Shown here in pieces: positions 2,930 through 46,203 of a stretch of 64,000 bases of DNA. The stretch covers positions 1-64,000 of the forward strand of contig NZ_JACJLC010000005.1 in the NCBI RefSeq assembly GCF_016901955.1, written 5' to 3'. This DNA comes from Pseudoflavonifractor phocaeensis. Its GTDB lineage: Bacteria; Bacillota; Clostridia; Oscillospirales; Oscillospiraceae. The notes beneath the pieces were generated by a model. The model was not told the DNA's origin and ran no database searches. It worked only from the letters and a program-made list of their open reading frames with translations. Position 1 is the first letter of the stretch; each line of letters begins with the position of its first letter. The position numbers were made by a program, and so were the translations under genes.

Positions 2930-3364
2930 TCATTCCCCGGACACAATGAGCTGGGTGACGCCGTCGCTGTCCAGGTAGACGCTCTGGCAATTTCCTGCGA
3001 CAGCCCGGATGTCACCGTTTTCCTGCACGGTGGCAGCGGTGAAAAAGTCGACCCGCCACATCTCCGTGTGAGCGTCGTAGTATTCGCTGGTGGTGTTATA
3101 CTCGATGGTGCATTCGTTCCTGGCCCGTTCCACCGCCCCGTTCTGATCTTCGATGGGGAAGAGATCCACGTTGACAAATCCCGTTGTTTTCACGCCGGGG
3201 TCTCCGGCCTGGTACATGGCGGCGTCCTCTTCGTAGGAAAAGCTGGCCAGGGACTGGCCGTCCGGCTCGTTGGGGGGAGAGGGGACTGCCCCTGACTGCG
3301 GATGGCACGCCGCCAACAAACAGGCAGACGCCAGGGCCAGCAGGGAAAGGCTCCACTGTTTCAT
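2930..3364 (-). CDS. Hypothetical small lipoprotein
   Basis: This 144-residue protein has a signal peptide ending in the lipobox LLAAC (Cys20), so it is probably a membrane-anchored surface lipoprotein. A Pro/Ser-rich linker follows and then a compact domain of about 100 residues with alternating hydrophobic and polar positions (for example EMWRVDFFTAATV). I do not recognise the domain. The start has a good binding site (AAAGGAG) eight bases upstream. It lies 40 bp downstream of the TetR regulator gene on the same strand and may be cotranscribed with it. Confidence 0.75.
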   Translation of the reverse strand: MKQWSLSLLALASACLLAACHPQSGAVPSPPNEPDGQSLASFSYEEDAAMYQAGDPGVKTTGFVNVDLFPIEDQNGAVERARNECTIEYNTTSEYYDAHTEMWRVDFFTAATVQENGDIRAVAGNCQSVYLDSDGVTQLIVSGE

Positions 3365-3404
3365 CGGACACGCTCCTTTCTGAAGTTGCCTTCCTTCTAT
3401 TGCT

Positions 3405-4010
3405 TTAGACGGAACTTGATCGTTCCGGTTCCCTTTCCCGGGAGGCTTTCCCCGCCTGGGCCGGGGCGAAGAGTGCCCAGCCCTCGGCGGCCATGCGCTG
3501 GGAGACCGCCCCGATGACCGCCCGGACCTGACGGGCCCCGAAGGTGCGCCGGTGCTGCTGGTAGGCGTAGTAGGCCCCCTGGATCTGGTAGGTCAGCAGG
3601 ATGTGGAACCGGGCGTCCTCCTTGTGCTCGGGCAGCAGGCGGCAGGCCAGGGCCCGCAGCTCCCGCTCAATGGCGATGGGCAGGACGGAGGCCTGGGTGC
3701 CCGAGAAGAGGATGTCGATCAGCTCCTGCTGGGCGGAGAAGGCGTCAAAGAGCTGCTCCACAAAGCGGCCGTGGTCCTCGGTGAGCAGCTCCGGCCGGTC
3801 CAGGCTCTCCAGCACCCCCCGGATCACCTCCTGCTGGAGCTGATCGGACAGGTGGTATACGTCCCGATAGTGCAGATAAAAGGTGGCCTTGCTGATCTCC
3901 GCTCGCTGGGCCAGCTCCTTGACGGTGATCCGCTCCAGGGGCAGCCGGGCCCGCAGCTCCAGGAAGGCGGCCCGGATGGCCCGCAGGGTCTTTTTCTCTC
4001 TCAGATCCAT
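3405..4010 (-). CDS. TetR/AcrR family transcriptional regulator
   Basis: This 201-residue protein has an N-terminal TetR helix-turn-helix at about residues 10-55 (ITVKELAQRAEISKATFYLH), followed by a helical ligand-binding and dimerisation region. The binding site AAGGAGG precedes the ATG. It is divergent from the branching enzyme gene, and the shared 140-bp spacer contains an imperfect palindrome at 4100-4127 that overlaps the predicted glgB -10 box. It may therefore repress that promoter; the ligand is unknown. The Arg/Glu/Ser-rich C-terminus is not informative. Confidence 0.88.
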   Translation of the reverse strand: MDLREKKTLRAIRAAFLELRARLPLERITVKELAQRAEISKATFYLHYRDVYHLSDQLQQEVIRGVLESLDRPELLTEDHGRFVEQLFDAFSAQQELIDILFSGTQASVLPIAIERELRALACRLLPEHKEDARFHILLTYQIQGAYYAYQQHRRTFGARQVRAVIGAVSQRMAAEGWALFAPAQAGKASREREPERSSSV

Positions 4011-4074
4011 GAGATCGCCTCCTTGACGGATCTGTAAATTCGTCCAATAACAGACGGCAGGCCAAAACAGGCGC

Positions 4075-4103
4075 TGTTCCCTTGCCCCCGTTTGTGCTAT
4101 AGT
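4075..4103 (+). promoter_or_regulatory. Promoter of the branching enzyme gene
   Basis: An extended -10 (GTGCTATAGT; box 4098-4103) lies 17 bp after a weak -35 (TGTTCC, 4075-4080). The palindrome at 4100-4127 overlaps its downstream edge. Confidence 0.45.
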
Positions 4104-4127
4104 ATATTATAGTAAAATATTATACTA
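4100..4127. promoter_or_regulatory. Candidate TetR operator between tetR and glgB
   Basis: TAGTATATTATA (4100-4111) and AATATTATACTA (4116-4127) form an inverted repeat with 10 of 12 matches and a 4-bp centre. The region is strikingly AT-rich compared with its surroundings. It overlaps the predicted -10 of the rightward promoter, as expected of a repressor site. Confidence 0.45.
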
Positions 4128-4150
4128 CAGTCAAATAAAAAGGAGCCAAT

Positions 4151-5908
4151 ATGGATCACTATTCGTTTTATACCGGGACCTGCTTTGACGCCTACACCTG
4201 GCTGGGCGCCCATTTGGAGGGGGAGGGGGCGGTATTCCGCGCCTTTGCCCCGGCGGCGGCGGGGATGGAGCTGCTTCACGGGGGCAAAAGCTATCCCATG
4301 GAGCAGGTATACGACGGCAATTTTTATGAGGCGCGGGTGGAAGGGGTGGCCCCTGGTGACTGCTATCAGTTCCGGGTCCACCGCCCCGACGGGGGCTATA
4401 CCGACCACTGCGACCCCTACGGCTACGGCATGGAGCTGCGGCCGGGGCGGCAGTCGGTGGTGCGGGATCTGGCGGAGTACCAGTTCCGGGACTGGGCCTG
4501 GATGGCCGCCCGGGAGGAGCGGCTGGAGGAGCCGCTGAACATCTACGAGCTCCACCTGGGCTCCTGGCGGCGAAAGCCCGACGGGAGCTGGTACCGGTAT
4601 GACGAGCTGGCCTATCCCCTCATCGAGTACGTCCGGCAGTACGGCTACAACTATGTGGAGTTCATGCCCCTGAGCGAGCACCCCTGCGACGAGAGCTGGG
4701 GCTATCAGGTCACCGGCTTTTACGCCCCCACCAGCCGGTATGGCACCGCCCGGGAGCTGATGATCCTGGTGGACCGGCTCCACCAGGCGGGGATCGGGGT
4801 GATCCTGGACTTTGTGCCCGCCCACTTTGCCCTGGACGACTACGGCCTGGCCCGGTTCGACGGCACCGCCCTGTACGAGTACCCCAGCCGGGACGTGGAG
4901 GTCAGCGAGTGGGGGAGCCACAACTTCATGTACTCCCGGGGGGAGGTGCGCTCCTTCCTCCAGTCCTGCGCCCGGTACTGGCTGGAGGTGTTCCACTTTG
5001 ACGGCCTGCGGATGGACGCGGTGAGCCGGATCCTCTACTGGCAGGGGGACCAGGCCAGGGGGGTGAACGGGGATGGAGTGCGCTTTCTCCGGGAAATGAA
5101 CCGAGGCCTGAAAAAGCTGTGCCCCGGCTGCATCCTGGCGGCGGAGGACTCCACCAGCTTTCCCAAGGTAACTGCTCCGGCGGAGCAGGGCGGGCTGGGC
5201 TTCGACTACAAGTGGGACATGGGGTGGATGCACGACACCCTCTCCTACTTCCAGTCCCCTCCCGCGGAGCGGGCCCGGAACCCCCAGCGGCTCACCTTTT
5301 CTATGCATTACTTCTCCCAGGAGCGGTATCTCCTCCCCCTGTCTCATGACGAGGTGGTCCACGGTAAGGCTACCATTTTGCAGAAAATGCACGGGGACTA
5401 TGATGGGAAGTTCCCCCAGGCCCGGGCCTTCTACCTTTATATGATGGTTCATCCGGGAAAGAAGCTCAACTTCATGGGCAACGAGATCGGCCATTTCCGG
5501 GAGTGGGACGAGGGCCGGGAGCAGGACTGGCTGCTGTTGGACTATCCCATCCACAAGGCCTTTGCCGCCTATATGGCGGAGCTCAACCGCCTCTATCTGA
5601 CCCGTCCGGCCCTGTCTCAGTGGGATTACCGGCCGGAGGGCTTCCGCTGGCTGGACTGCGGGGAGGCCCCCTGTCTCTTCGGCCTGGAGCGGCGGTGTGG
5701 GGAGGAACGGCTGGCGGCGCTGTTCAACCTGGGGGAGGAGCCGGCGGAGTACCGGCTGCCCGCCCCGGAGGGCGGGGTGCTGCTGCTCCACACCCAGTGG
5801 GAGCGATTCGGCGGCGACCTGCCCCGGGCGTCCTGCCTCCCCGCCCGCGGGGTCTTTTCTGGGCTCCTTCCTCCCTTCTCCGGAGCCCTGTTTGCCCTGG
5901 AGGACTGA
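4151..5908 (+). CDS. glgB: 1,4-alpha-glucan branching enzyme (GH13)
   Basis: The enzyme cuts alpha-1,4-glucan chains and re-attaches them by alpha-1,6 links, in the cytoplasm. At 585 residues it is shorter than E. coli GlgB because it lacks the extra N-terminal module. An early-set domain (about 20-90) leads into the GH13 barrel. Catalytic candidates are Asp289 (FDGLRMDAV), Glu332 (LAAEDST) and Asp400 (LSHDEVVHGK), the last motif being characteristic of branching enzymes. A strong AAGGAG binding site precedes the ATG. No other glycogen genes are nearby. Confidence 0.93.
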   Translation: MDHYSFYTGTCFDAYTWLGAHLEGEGAVFRAFAPAAAGMELLHGGKSYPMEQVYDGNFYEARVEGVAPGDCYQFRVHRPDGGYTDHCDPYGYGMELRPGRQSVVRDLAEYQFRDWAWMAAREERLEEPLNIYELHLGSWRRKPDGSWYRYDELAYPLIEYVRQYGYNYVEFMPLSEHPCDESWGYQVTGFYAPTSRYGTARELMILVDRLHQAGIGVILDFVPAHFALDDYGLARFDGTALYEYPSRDVEVSEWGSHNFMYSRGEVRSFLQSCARYWLEVFHFDGLRMDAVSRILYWQGDQARGVNGDGVRFLREMNRGLKKLCPGCILAAEDSTSFPKVTAPAEQGGLGFDYKWDMGWMHDTLSYFQSPPAERARNPQRLTFSMHYFSQERYLLPLSHDEVVHGKATILQKMHGDYDGKFPQARAFYLYMMVHPGKKLNFMGNEIGHFREWDEGREQDWLLLDYPIHKAFAAYMAELNRLYLTRPALSQWDYRPEGFRWLDCGEAPCLFGLERRCGEERLAALFNLGEEPAEYRLPAPEGGVLLLHTQWERFGGDLPRASCLPARGVFSGLLPPFSGALFALED

Positions 5909-44510: not shown

Positions 44511-44595
44511 TATTCTCCTGGGGTGAATGAAATGGTCCCGCTCCCTCGTATTATGGGTGAGGCCGGCGACGGCTATCTCAGATATGGAGTGATGG

Positions 44596-44868
44596 ATGAT
44601 GAATAAGATCTGGAAGGGAATGATCGCCGGGGCACTGGTACTGACCATCGGGGCCACCACCGCCTTTGCCGCCGGAGGCTGGCATCACGCCGCCAGCCGG
44701 AGCTGGAGCGGCTGCCAGGGGAGCGACTGCCAGTATGTGGACGCCGACGGCGACGGGATCTGCGACAACCGGGGAACCGGCTGCCGGTACACGGACGCCG
44801 ACGGAGACGGGGTGTGCGACTACTACGGCGCCGGTTGGGGCCATCGCGGCGGCCATCACGGCTGGTAA
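44596..44868 (+). CDS. Small secreted protein with two Asp-rich Ca-type loops
   Basis: The 90-residue protein has a signal peptide ending near TAFAAGG. Two copies of a loop follow: YVDADGDGICD and YTDADGDGVCD. These DxDxDG loops with a following Cys resemble calcium-binding loops of thrombospondin type-3 or dockerin repeats. The end is GHRGGHHGW, His-rich. ATG 44596 and 44599 are both possible. It is the first gene before an ECF sigma factor and an RsgI-like anti-sigma, whose C-terminus also ends His-rich with HHGW. It may be a target or sensor partner of that system. Confidence 0.75.
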   Translation: MMNKIWKGMIAGALVLTIGATTAFAAGGWHHAASRSWSGCQGSDCQYVDADGDGICDNRGTGCRYTDADGDGVCDYYGAGWGHRGGHHGW

Positions 44869-44907
44869 CCGATTCTGGTATCTGAGCAGAGAAGAGAGGT
44901 GGAGGAC

Positions 44908-45393
44908 ATGCGGGGGGAAGAAGAGACTGACCTGGCCATCCAGCGGTACGGGGATACCGTCCGTCGGCTGTGCATGCTCCACCTGAAAAACGAGGCGGAC
45001 AGCCAGGATATTTTCCAGACCGTCTTTCTCAAATACCTGTTGTACCGGGGAGAGTTTGAAAGCCCGGAGCACGAGAAGGCCTGGTTCATCCGGGTCACCC
45101 TCAATGCCTGTAAGGACCTGCTGAAGAGCGTGTTCCGCAGCCGTACTGTCTCTCTGGAGGAGCTCTCCCCTCAGTATGCCGCCGGGCTCACCGACGACAG
45201 CCGGGAGGTGTGGCGGGCGGCGCTGGCTCTGCCCCCCAAATACCGGGACGTGATCTACCTCCACTACTATGAGGGCTATACCGCCCCCGAACTCAGTGAA
45301 ATTTTAGGCCGTAAAGTAAATACCATTTACACAGATCTGACCCGGGCCAGGGGTAAGCTGAAAGAGATGCTGGGAGGTGAGGGGGATGGATGA
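44908..45393 (+). CDS. ECF-type RNA polymerase sigma factor
   Basis: This 161-residue protein has sigma region 2 (QDIFQTVFLKYLLYR...HEKAWFIRVTLNACKD) and region 4 (YRDVIYLHYYEGYTAPELSEILGRKVNTI). ATG 44908 is eight bases after AGAGAGG; a GTG at 44899 is too close to that site. The end overlaps the anti-sigma gene by eight bases. A possible self-recognised promoter lies upstream of the small secreted gene (44528-44552). Confidence 0.92.
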   Translation: MRGEEETDLAIQRYGDTVRRLCMLHLKNEADSQDIFQTVFLKYLLYRGEFESPEHEKAWFIRVTLNACKDLLKSVFRSRTVSLEELSPQYAAGLTDDSREVWRAALALPPKYRDVIYLHYYEGYTAPELSEILGRKVNTIYTDLTRARGKLKEMLGGEGDG

Positions 45394-46153
45394 ACGGCTG
45401 AAGGAGGCCTTTGGACAGGTCCGGGCGGAGGACAGCCTGAAAGCGGCCACCCGGGCCCGTTTGGCGGCGGCCAGAGCGGGCCGGAAGCGAAGCGCCCCCC
45501 GGTACTGGCTGGCGGCGGCGGTGGCCTGCCTGGCCCTGCTGGTGGCGGGGATCGGTGGATACCAATTCTACTTTACACCTACTACCATCCTAAGCATTGA
45601 TATCAACCCCTCCCTGGAGCTGGGGGTGAACCGCTTCGACAAGGTGGTCACCGTCCTGGGCTGGAACGAGGACGGCCAAGCCCTGGCAGACAGCCTGGAG
45701 CTGCGCTTTTTGGACTACCAGGAGGCCCTGGAAGTCCTGATCGGCTGCCGGAGCATCGCCGACCGGCTGGCCCAGGGGCAGCTGCTGTCTATCACCGTGG
45801 TAGGGGAGGACCAGGTCCAGAGCGACCGGCTGCTGGCGGGGGCGGAGGCCTGCACCGCCGGACAGGAGAACGTGCGCTGCGGCCACGGGGACGCCCAGAC
45901 TCTGGAGGAGGCCCACCACGCCGGACTGTCCATGGGCAAGTATCAGGCCTTCCTGGAGCTCCAGGCCCTGGACCCCAACGTCGCCCCGGAGGACGTGGCC
46001 GGGCTCACCATGAGGCAGATCCGGGACTGGATCGACCGGCTGGCGGGATCCCAGGGGGCGGAGGAGACTCCCGTCTCCTCGCCGGGCGGCGGATGGCAGG
46101 GGGACCATGACGGCGGCCAGGGCCACCACCACGGCTGGGATACACACGAATAG
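45386..46153 (+). CDS. Membrane anti-sigma factor, RsgI-like
   Basis: The 255-residue protein has a cytoplasmic N-terminus of about 42 residues, one membrane helix (WLAAAVACLALLVAGIGGYQ) and an outside domain that begins ILSIDINPSLELGVNRFDKV, the pattern of the RsgI family middle region. The tail is Gly/His-rich (GHHHGWDTHE). It should hold the ECF sigma factor until an outside signal is sensed; no typical zinc anti-sigma motif is seen in the N-terminus. ATG 45386 follows GGGAGG; an in-frame GTG at 45377 is rejected. Confidence 0.85.
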   Translation: MDERLKEAFGQVRAEDSLKAATRARLAAARAGRKRSAPRYWLAAAVACLALLVAGIGGYQFYFTPTTILSIDINPSLELGVNRFDKVVTVLGWNEDGQALADSLELRFLDYQEALEVLIGCRSIADRLAQGQLLSITVVGEDQVQSDRLLAGAEACTAGQENVRCGHGDAQTLEEAHHAGLSMGKYQAFLELQALDPNVAPEDVAGLTMRQIRDWIDRLAGSQGAEETPVSSPGGGWQGDHDGGQGHHHGWDTHE

Positions 46154-46156
46154 CAA

Positions 46157-46188
46157 AGAAAAAGACCGCATTGCGCGGTCTTTTTCTT
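46157..46188 (+). terminator. Terminator of the sigma/anti-sigma operon
   Basis: AAAAAGACCGC pairs with GCGGTCTTTTT around a short ATT-G loop and runs into a T-rich tail, just after the anti-sigma stop. Confidence 0.9.
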
Positions 46189-46203
46189 TGGACAGTTCTG
46201 TGG

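Follow-up and report, generated by a model that had tools for sequence, protein, structure and literature searches.

A three-gene ECF sigma factor unit with an RsgI-type anti-sigma factor and a small exported protein that share Gly/His-rich tails

Introduction

What do RsgI-type anti-sigma factors without carbohydrate-binding domains sense? This question is raised by a locus in the window, that is, the whole stretch of 64,000 nucleotides from Pseudoflavonifractor phocaeensis that was analysed, where the gene of such a factor follows those of a small exported protein and an ECF sigma factor. The original prediction held that the exported protein and the outer domain of the anti-sigma factor, which have matching His-rich ends, may bind the same metal or each other. 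The module is compact and recurrent. It comprises a single promoter, a single secreted product and a short tail, and it allows ligand, sensor and output to be studied jointly.

Organization of the unit

The region 44524-46190 of the forward strand formed one apparent transcription unit of promoter, small exported protein, ECF sigma factor, anti-sigma factor (the third gene) and terminator. The following features were assigned.

44524-44552, + strand: conserved ECF-type promoter, -35 TGAATG (44524-44529), 17-bp spacer, -10 CGTATT (44547-44552), from cross-genus conservation
44596-44868, + strand: small exported protein, 90 aa, with a signal-peptide-like start at about residues 1-26, judged by eye
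44740-44766, + strand: acidic loop 1, DADGDGICD, residues 49-57, from the sequence; a number of positions fully or almost invariant across 55 relatives
44794-44820, + strand: acidic loop 2, DADGDGVCD, residues 67-75, from the sequence; several positions nearly invariant in 55 relatives
44821-44865, + strand: Gly/His-rich C-terminal tail of the small protein (YYGAGWGHRGGHHGW), from sequence and composition
44908-45393, + strand: ECF sigma factor, 161 aa from ATG 44908 (GTG 44899 is an alternative start), from Pfam and sigma70-ECF matches
45386-46153, + strand: RsgI-type membrane anti-sigma factor, 255 aa, from the RsgI_M match and an AF2 model
45500-45574, + strand: predicted transmembrane helix, residues 39-63, from the AF2 helix
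45605-45610, + strand: Asn74-Pro75, predicted self-cleavage site, from alignment to solved RsgI chains
46061-46150, + strand: low-confidence C-terminal tail of the anti-sigma factor, residues 226-255, Gly/His-rich at its end, from pLDDT and composition
46154-46190, + strand: intrinsic terminator hairpin of the unit, 16-bp stem, z -7.7 versus shuffles

The elements on which the original prediction was built were verified in the sequence. The small ORF at 44596-44868 contained two DADGDG-C loops and ended in GHRGGHHGW, and the anti-sigma factor ended in GHHHGWDTHE. The sigma gene ended at 45393 and the anti-sigma ATG lay at 45386, which gave the predicted overlap of eight bases. The terminator that the two genes were said to share corresponded to the single strong hairpin at 46154-46190; it was found by its stem z-score and was not picked up by a simple terminator scan. 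No Rfam match was obtained in the window at gathering scores.

The sigma factor matched Sigma70_r4_2 (E 7.7e-15), Sigma70_r2 (E 2.1e-8) and sigma70-ECF (E 2.1e-21). It had regions 2 and 4 only and a length within about 160-200 aa, which fitted an ECF sigma factor. It did not fit a SigI-type partner, since both Sigma70_r2 and Sigma70_r4_2 were present; the sigma partners of three RsgI loci (L222, L261 and L264) matched Sigma70_r2 and neither Sigma70_r4 nor Sigma70_r4_2.

The small exported protein

The small protein was the only match at E<=0.001 in its own 3.50-Mb genome. The Excalibur motif is a DxDGDGxC[D/E]-like acidic loop, and the small protein resembled Excalibur, bacterial TSP3 and EF-hand proteins in having such loops. 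Unlike members of those families, it stayed below every Pfam cut-off (the best match was EF-hand_1 with 12 bits against a curated 25.4) and its AF2 model had no confident fold (pLDDT 56). Among 55 aligned relatives at E<=0.01, one matched Excalibur (E 3.6e-4), one TSP3_bac and six EF-hand_1, and the Pfam scan gave no family of their own for these Cys/Asp/Gly-rich secreted proteins. The present unit offers a likely role for this group of gut-bacterial proteins. Complete disulfide pairing was not supported, as the number of cysteines was even in 48% of 77 small proteins.

In L218, L245 and L257, the acidic loops of the small protein were lost, Cys and His were kept and the ends were His- or His/Cys-rich. 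The His-rich tail of the anti-sigma factor was retained in all three. On these sequences, what is common to the two proteins is the tail, more than the calcium loop. Two loop-less proteins, L245:773-1006 inside an ECF unit and L221:3087-3356 near a true SigI-RsgI pair with a His-rich tail, shared a Cys/His pattern around HYHDGVLCAGY and HTHDGVTYCGY, respectively. Exported DxDGDGxCD repeat proteins were also seen in Methanosarcinales (L158, L163, L166), Chloroflexi (L154, L165) and Hydrogenedentota (L168), with no adjoining sigma/anti-sigma pair of this kind.

The anti-sigma factor

The anti-sigma factor matched RsgI_M (PF23750) with E 4.1e-20 and 73.2 bits against a cut-off of 25.3, and the same domain was found at E<=0.001 in 67 of 72 aligned proteins. 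The AF2 model built from the 72 aligned proteins had a pLDDT of 88. It contained two cytoplasmic helices, the membrane helix and a folded outside domain. Confidence was low at the end, with a block pLDDT of 77 for residues 221-230 and of 52-57 from residue 231 onward. A Foldseek search with this model gave ten matches at E<=0.001, and all of them were chains of RsgI periplasmic domains. The fold of the outside domain was that of 8t9n, 8hep, 8hdj, 8heq, 8her and 8u9o.

Asn74-Pro75 lay between strands 67-72 and 76-81 of the model. In five solved RsgI periplasmic domains, chains B started at profile position 77, the Pro of the Asn-Pro motif, as would be expected of self-cleaved proteins. The motif was kept in 64 of 77 relatives. 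It was absent from the other 13 (L013, L014, L015, L016, L017, L021 and others), most of which kept the remaining domain and the tail. The predicted self-cleavage is therefore not universal, and some units may work without it.

RsgI_N (PF12791) was absent from the window's anti-sigma factor at E<=10 and from the 72 aligned proteins at E<=0.001. The same profile did find the domain in L222 (E 2.3e-5), L261 (E 7.4e-5) and L264 (E 0.0021), which served as positive controls and were all below the curated cut-off. By its sequence and model, the protein would work like an RsgI, with predicted self-cleavage. We call it RsgI-type because two defining features of RsgI, the RsgI_N domain and a SigI partner, were missing.

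Conservation of the unit

The three-gene unit was found in 16 of the 20 genus genomes searched, at 17 loci, and the small gene stood immediately before the sigma gene in all 17 genus loci with this anti-sigma factor. A scan of named genomes gave the same order in 67 of the best 80 of 221 confirmed loci. This count is skewed to close relatives because the 80 were the best of the confirmed matches, and it counts L111, whose sigma and anti-sigma factor share an ORF, as well as the broken ORFs of L095 and L125. The small gene was thus conserved beside the sigma gene in both sets, as the original prediction had required. Named records with the unit belonged to Flavonifractor, Agathobaculum, Anaerotruncus, Oscillibacter, Blautia, Faecalibacterium, other Clostridia and one member of the Coriobacteriales. 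The genes that flank it in the window recurred in just 12 of the best 80 named loci, all from the window's genus, and other flanks were present in 68. The three genes therefore travel as a unit.

The remaining 13 of the 80 loci comprised L141 at a contig end, six small genes from Clostridia that had no sigma gene next to them (L118, L146, L147, L153, L162, L167), three archaeal loci, two from Chloroflexi and one from Hydrogenedentota. The promoter was still present in L153, L167 and L141. In each of the genomes of L167 and L141, a second, complete unit was present at another site, consistent with control in trans. The genomes of L153, L118 and L146 yielded no such anti-sigma factor at E<=1e-8, and for L147 and L162 the only matches were RsgI-type ones that were weaker and had different tails.

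Of 300 family genomes, 33 matched the small-protein profile, some of the weak ones by chance, and 41 matched the anti-sigma profile at E<=1e-25. For the 23 family anti-sigma factors at E<=1e-60, the profile found the small gene in 19 cases and inspection by eye added one (L218); the other three were a contig end (L204) and damaged operons (L214, L215). In two of the 19, L209 and L217, the small gene and the anti-sigma gene were retained and the sigma gene between them was lost. Among 398 phylum genomes there were ten anti-sigma matches at E<=1e-35, including the window's own. A small exported gene accompanied L242, L243 and L245 (loop-less in L245), and six others were without it.

Several operons (L254, L225, L255, which is also L214, L209, L217 and L215) had apparently been damaged by internal deletions that spared the promoter or the small gene and took out the sigma gene or a portion of the anti-sigma gene. 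They look damaged, and from draft sequence real decay is indistinguishable here from assembly collapse. In Neglectibacter sp. X58 (L111:4514-5713), sigma and anti-sigma factor formed a single ORF of 399 aa, either a natural fusion or a sequencing frameshift.

Matching tails of the two proteins

In a set of 51 non-overlapping window ORFs, each 90 aa or longer, the anti-sigma factor had the most His (four) in its last 12 residues. The ORFs were picked length-first, so that the small gene dropped out, and some of them are not real genes. Tails were compared over 77 distinct operons. These were the 82 distinct operons without L011, L125 and L170 (truncated or at a contig edge), L075 (a near-copy) and L100 (an extra domain); L012 and L111, with overlapping or fused ORFs, stood outside the 82. 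The alignments covered 72 of the 77 anti-sigma factors and 55 of the 77 small proteins.

It had been predicted that the tails would be shared and would co-vary in other genomes, and in His content they did. The His fractions of the two tails correlated with rho 0.57 (p 7.6e-8). Independent contrasts on the sigma-factor tree gave r 0.49 (permutation p 2e-4), the partial correlation given GC was 0.49, and the correlation outside the genus was 0.60 (rho, n 62). Tail His also increased with locus GC (rho 0.39 and 0.40). It correlated with the body of the partner, with rho 0.39 between small-protein tail and anti-sigma body and 0.41 between anti-sigma tail and small-protein body, so part of the signal is lineage-wide. 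The His content of the sigma factor showed no such correlation with tail His.

The anti-sigma tail also followed the presence of the small gene. The last 40 residues of the anti-sigma factor had a median of four His in the 77 operons with the small gene and zero or one in 22 of 24 anti-sigma factors without it (p 1e-9; p 2.6e-5 for ECF-type factors only; relatedness uncorrected in both). The 24 were gathered by hand and consisted of 11 related ECF-type factors and 13 genus paralogues; the damaged operons L214, L215, L219 and L225, the contig end L204 and the true, His-rich SigI-RsgI pairs L221 and L222 were kept outside this set. Anti-sigma factors without the small gene mostly had Gln/Asn/Glu/Lys-rich, Asp-rich or PepSY-like ends, and the 13 paralogous RsgI_M anti-sigma factors of the genus genomes ended Asp-rich or PepSY-like. 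In L220 (L220/L253), the promoter stood directly before the sigma gene, the small gene was gone and the anti-sigma tail was lost too. The Gly/His tail persisted in anti-sigma forms of 170-172 aa that lacked the remaining C-terminal region.

Exceptions were seen. Eight of the 77 anti-sigma factors had no His in their last 40 residues, and L223 and L224 had three tail His despite having no small gene. The true SigI-RsgI pair L221, which had a His-rich tail, was accompanied on the opposite strand by a small exported ORF that was rich in His and Cys and had no loops. L222, also a true SigI-RsgI pair, had a strongly His-rich tail, and its 3.6-kb locus contained no small His-rich exported ORF.

Promoter and regulon

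A candidate ECF promoter before the small gene had been proposed with TGAAAT at 44528-44533, a 13-bp spacer and CGTATT at 44547-44552. Both hexamers were present in the sequence, the promoter does precede the small gene and CGTATT was placed correctly. The -35 element, however, was off by four nucleotides, because the element conserved across genera was TGAATG with a 17-bp spacer to CGTATT. A regular expression for the proposed -35 (spacer 12-14) matched none of 82 upstream regions, and in the 82 loci the spacer was 17 bp in 73 of 74 matches. The consensus was TGAATGGATT-N12-TCGTATT.

A degenerate form of the motif, [TC][GC]AAN[GA]-N16-18-CGT[AG], was located 50-100 bp ahead of the small gene in 72 of the 79 distinct operons from other loci, compared to 2.7% of shuffled upstream regions. 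Among the seven operons that failed, L170 was without upstream sequence, L160 had the motif and a misplaced start, L111, L144, L148 and L149 were near matches, and L142 had none in its 125 upstream bases.

With up to two mismatches, 16 of the 20 matches in 20 genus genomes were at this operon. The window's own site was recovered, all 16 operon-bearing genomes had a match at the operon, the four genomes without the operon had none, and the reversed motif gave no matches. Two of the four extra matches (L192, L194) were inside ORFs of the window's own genome. The second operon of one genome (G012) was found only by the other promoter pattern, which gave three matches outside operons. As further targets, L179, L185, L192 and L194 were rejected for lying within ORFs, and L188 for lying at the end of one.

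In 300 family genomes at one mismatch, 19 genomes had exactly one match and none had two. Eleven of these matches fell at small-gene operons, one at the operon lacking the small gene (L220), two at related sigma/anti-sigma pairs that also lacked it (L231, L232), one at a deleted remnant (L233/L254) and three inside ORFs (L228, L235, L240), and one was unexplained (L238). This stringency misses many operons, the window's included.

Since 16 of the 20 genus matches were at this operon, the sigma factor probably drives little besides its own operon. We infer an autoregulated sigma factor that would recognise this promoter, with its own operon as the clear target and weaker targets possible. The sigma/anti-sigma pairs L220, L248, L251 and L252 were without the small gene and carried the same kind of promoter directly before the sigma gene. 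This suggested that the small gene probably joined, or left, a pair that was already autoregulated.

Proposed mechanism and alternative explanations

The reading that we favour, with belief and doubt in about equal measure, is a self-contained envelope-sensing loop of RsgI type whose sensor and secreted product would share a ligand or bind one another. One promoter, presumably read by the unit's own ECF sigma factor, would drive all three genes, and the anti-sigma factor would hold the sigma factor at the membrane. Judged by the fold and the site of solved relatives, the outside domain would cut itself at Asn74-Pro75 and stay folded. By analogy with RsgI, a ligand on the disordered Gly/His-rich tail could separate the halves, an intramembrane protease would then free the sigma factor, and the operon would fire. 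The small protein would be the main output; its DxDGDGxCD loops and matching tail suggest a binder of cations or of a cation-loaded wall polymer. The co-variation of the tails and the one joint loss of small gene and anti-sigma tail point to sensor and product binding a common ligand or each other, which would close a feedback loop.

This scheme leans on C. thermocellum. For RsgI of that species, self-cleavage, separation of strand beta1, RseP and ClpXP are described in this order, and the C-terminal domain is described as binding the substrate to which the system responds (PMC12203970). We read the tail as the sensor because of that domain.

It is also conceivable, if unlikely, that the small protein itself is the ligand or a co-inhibitor. 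Its tail would bind the anti-sigma tail or the outside domain as a brake or an autoinducer, with no metal involved. The co-variation in His and the joint loss of small gene and tail in L220 agreed with this, as did the mean tail charges, +2.9 (basic) for the small protein and -2.0 (mildly acidic) for the anti-sigma factor. However, the charges correlated positively across loci (rho 0.34), so that charge pairing was not supported and there was no compensation, and low-complexity Gly-rich tails are in general unlikely to be specific interfaces by themselves.

We consider it rather improbable that the disordered anti-sigma tail monitors wall thickness or gaps, with the small protein as a wall-associated output and the shared His incidental. 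This alternative was raised mainly because the disordered region of B. subtilis RsgI has been postulated to sense wall integrity (PMC10128001). The RsgI-type domain with its low-confidence tail would suit it, and so would the other low-complexity tails of relatives without the small gene. However, it leaves unexplained why His-rich tails track the small gene and why His co-variation survives correction for relatedness, and the tail is short here (about 30 residues).

Compositional drift, in which the same genome writes two unconstrained low-complexity ends and the small protein would simply be made under sigma control, would account for the rise of tail His with GC, the correlated body His and the tails of L222-L224 without a small gene, but it is quite improbable given the partial correlation and contrasts that remain at 0.49, the lack of such a trend in the sigma factor, the Asp-rich or PepSY-like ends of the 13 genus paralogues and the survival of the tails in the 170-172-aa forms.

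If the matched-tail idea is true, the class of ligand would be predictable from the tail of the partner.

Comparison with known systems

The anti-sigma factor resembled RsgI of C. thermocellum (RsgI1, RsgI2, RsgI6 and RsgI9) and B. subtilis in its RsgI_M domain, fold, Asn-Pro position, single membrane helix and variable C-terminal sensor region. Unlike RsgI, it had no detected RsgI_N and a short cytoplasmic part (38 residues), and its partner was an ECF sigma factor and not SigI. A Gly/His tail replaced the carbohydrate-binding domain, and a secreted protein with a matching tail was co-encoded.

The unit also resembled ECF sigma/anti-sigma pairs of the SigV, SigM and SigW type, with regions 2 and 4 only, an overlapping anti-sigma gene and CGT in the -10 element. 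In contrast to them, its outside domain was of RsgI type, and promoter matches hardly occurred beyond its own operon at the stringency used.

Nearest in idea was the Caulobacter CaBP-SigV system, in which, according to the available part of the report, the gene of an exported EF-hand-type Ca-binding protein adjoins that of an ECF sigma factor and the two regulate each other (PMC13171946). That system has three EF-hands and separate promoters and belongs to an alphaproteobacterium, and the same part of the report mentions no RsgI-type anti-sigma factor and no matching tails (PMC13171946). A paper on chromium soil that names RsgI was irrelevant to this module, as far as its available part goes (PMC12234377).

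No publication was recognised as describing the module among the titles and abstract beginnings searched, a literature that leaves out most subscription papers. Judged by its genes and domains, the unit is a new form of RsgI-type signalling.

A second unit with matched tails

The same genome contained a separate SigI-RsgI unit (G000:C249, L261), whose anti-sigma factor matched RsgI_N (E 7.4e-5) and RsgI_M (E 2e-22) and ended in DYGPNADGVTDYEDT repeats followed by an Asp run. The next gene encoded an exported, lipoprotein-like product that carried RsgI_M and PepSY domains and again showed these repeats and an Asp run. Within L261 (G000:C249:33500-39500), this anti-sigma factor, with DYGPNADGVTDY repeats in its tail, and its neighbour lay at 1850-2845 and 3010-4269. 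The repeat was of Asp/Tyr/Gly type, DYGPNADG[V/I]TDYDDT, and the tails of the ECF unit were of Gly/His type. By inspection and without statistics, the same pairing was noted in L262 and L263 and a looser one in L264. Duplication, or common descent of the outside parts, could explain the shared tail here, because the partner shares the RsgI_M domain.

We tentatively suggest, with more doubt than confidence, that RsgI-type systems of gut Clostridia generally have matched tails, with the anti-sigma factor ending like a secreted partner whose gene lies next to its own. Sensor and product would then read the same ligand and the loop would set its level, and this genus would show the principle twice, with different chemistry.

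The RsgI of the L261-type SigI unit was present in 5 of the 20 genus genomes. Those of L265 (G000:C249) and L266 (G007:C2) were 100% identical over 317 aa, whereas the ECF-type anti-sigma factors of the two genomes were 71% identical, which suggests recent transfer or contamination.
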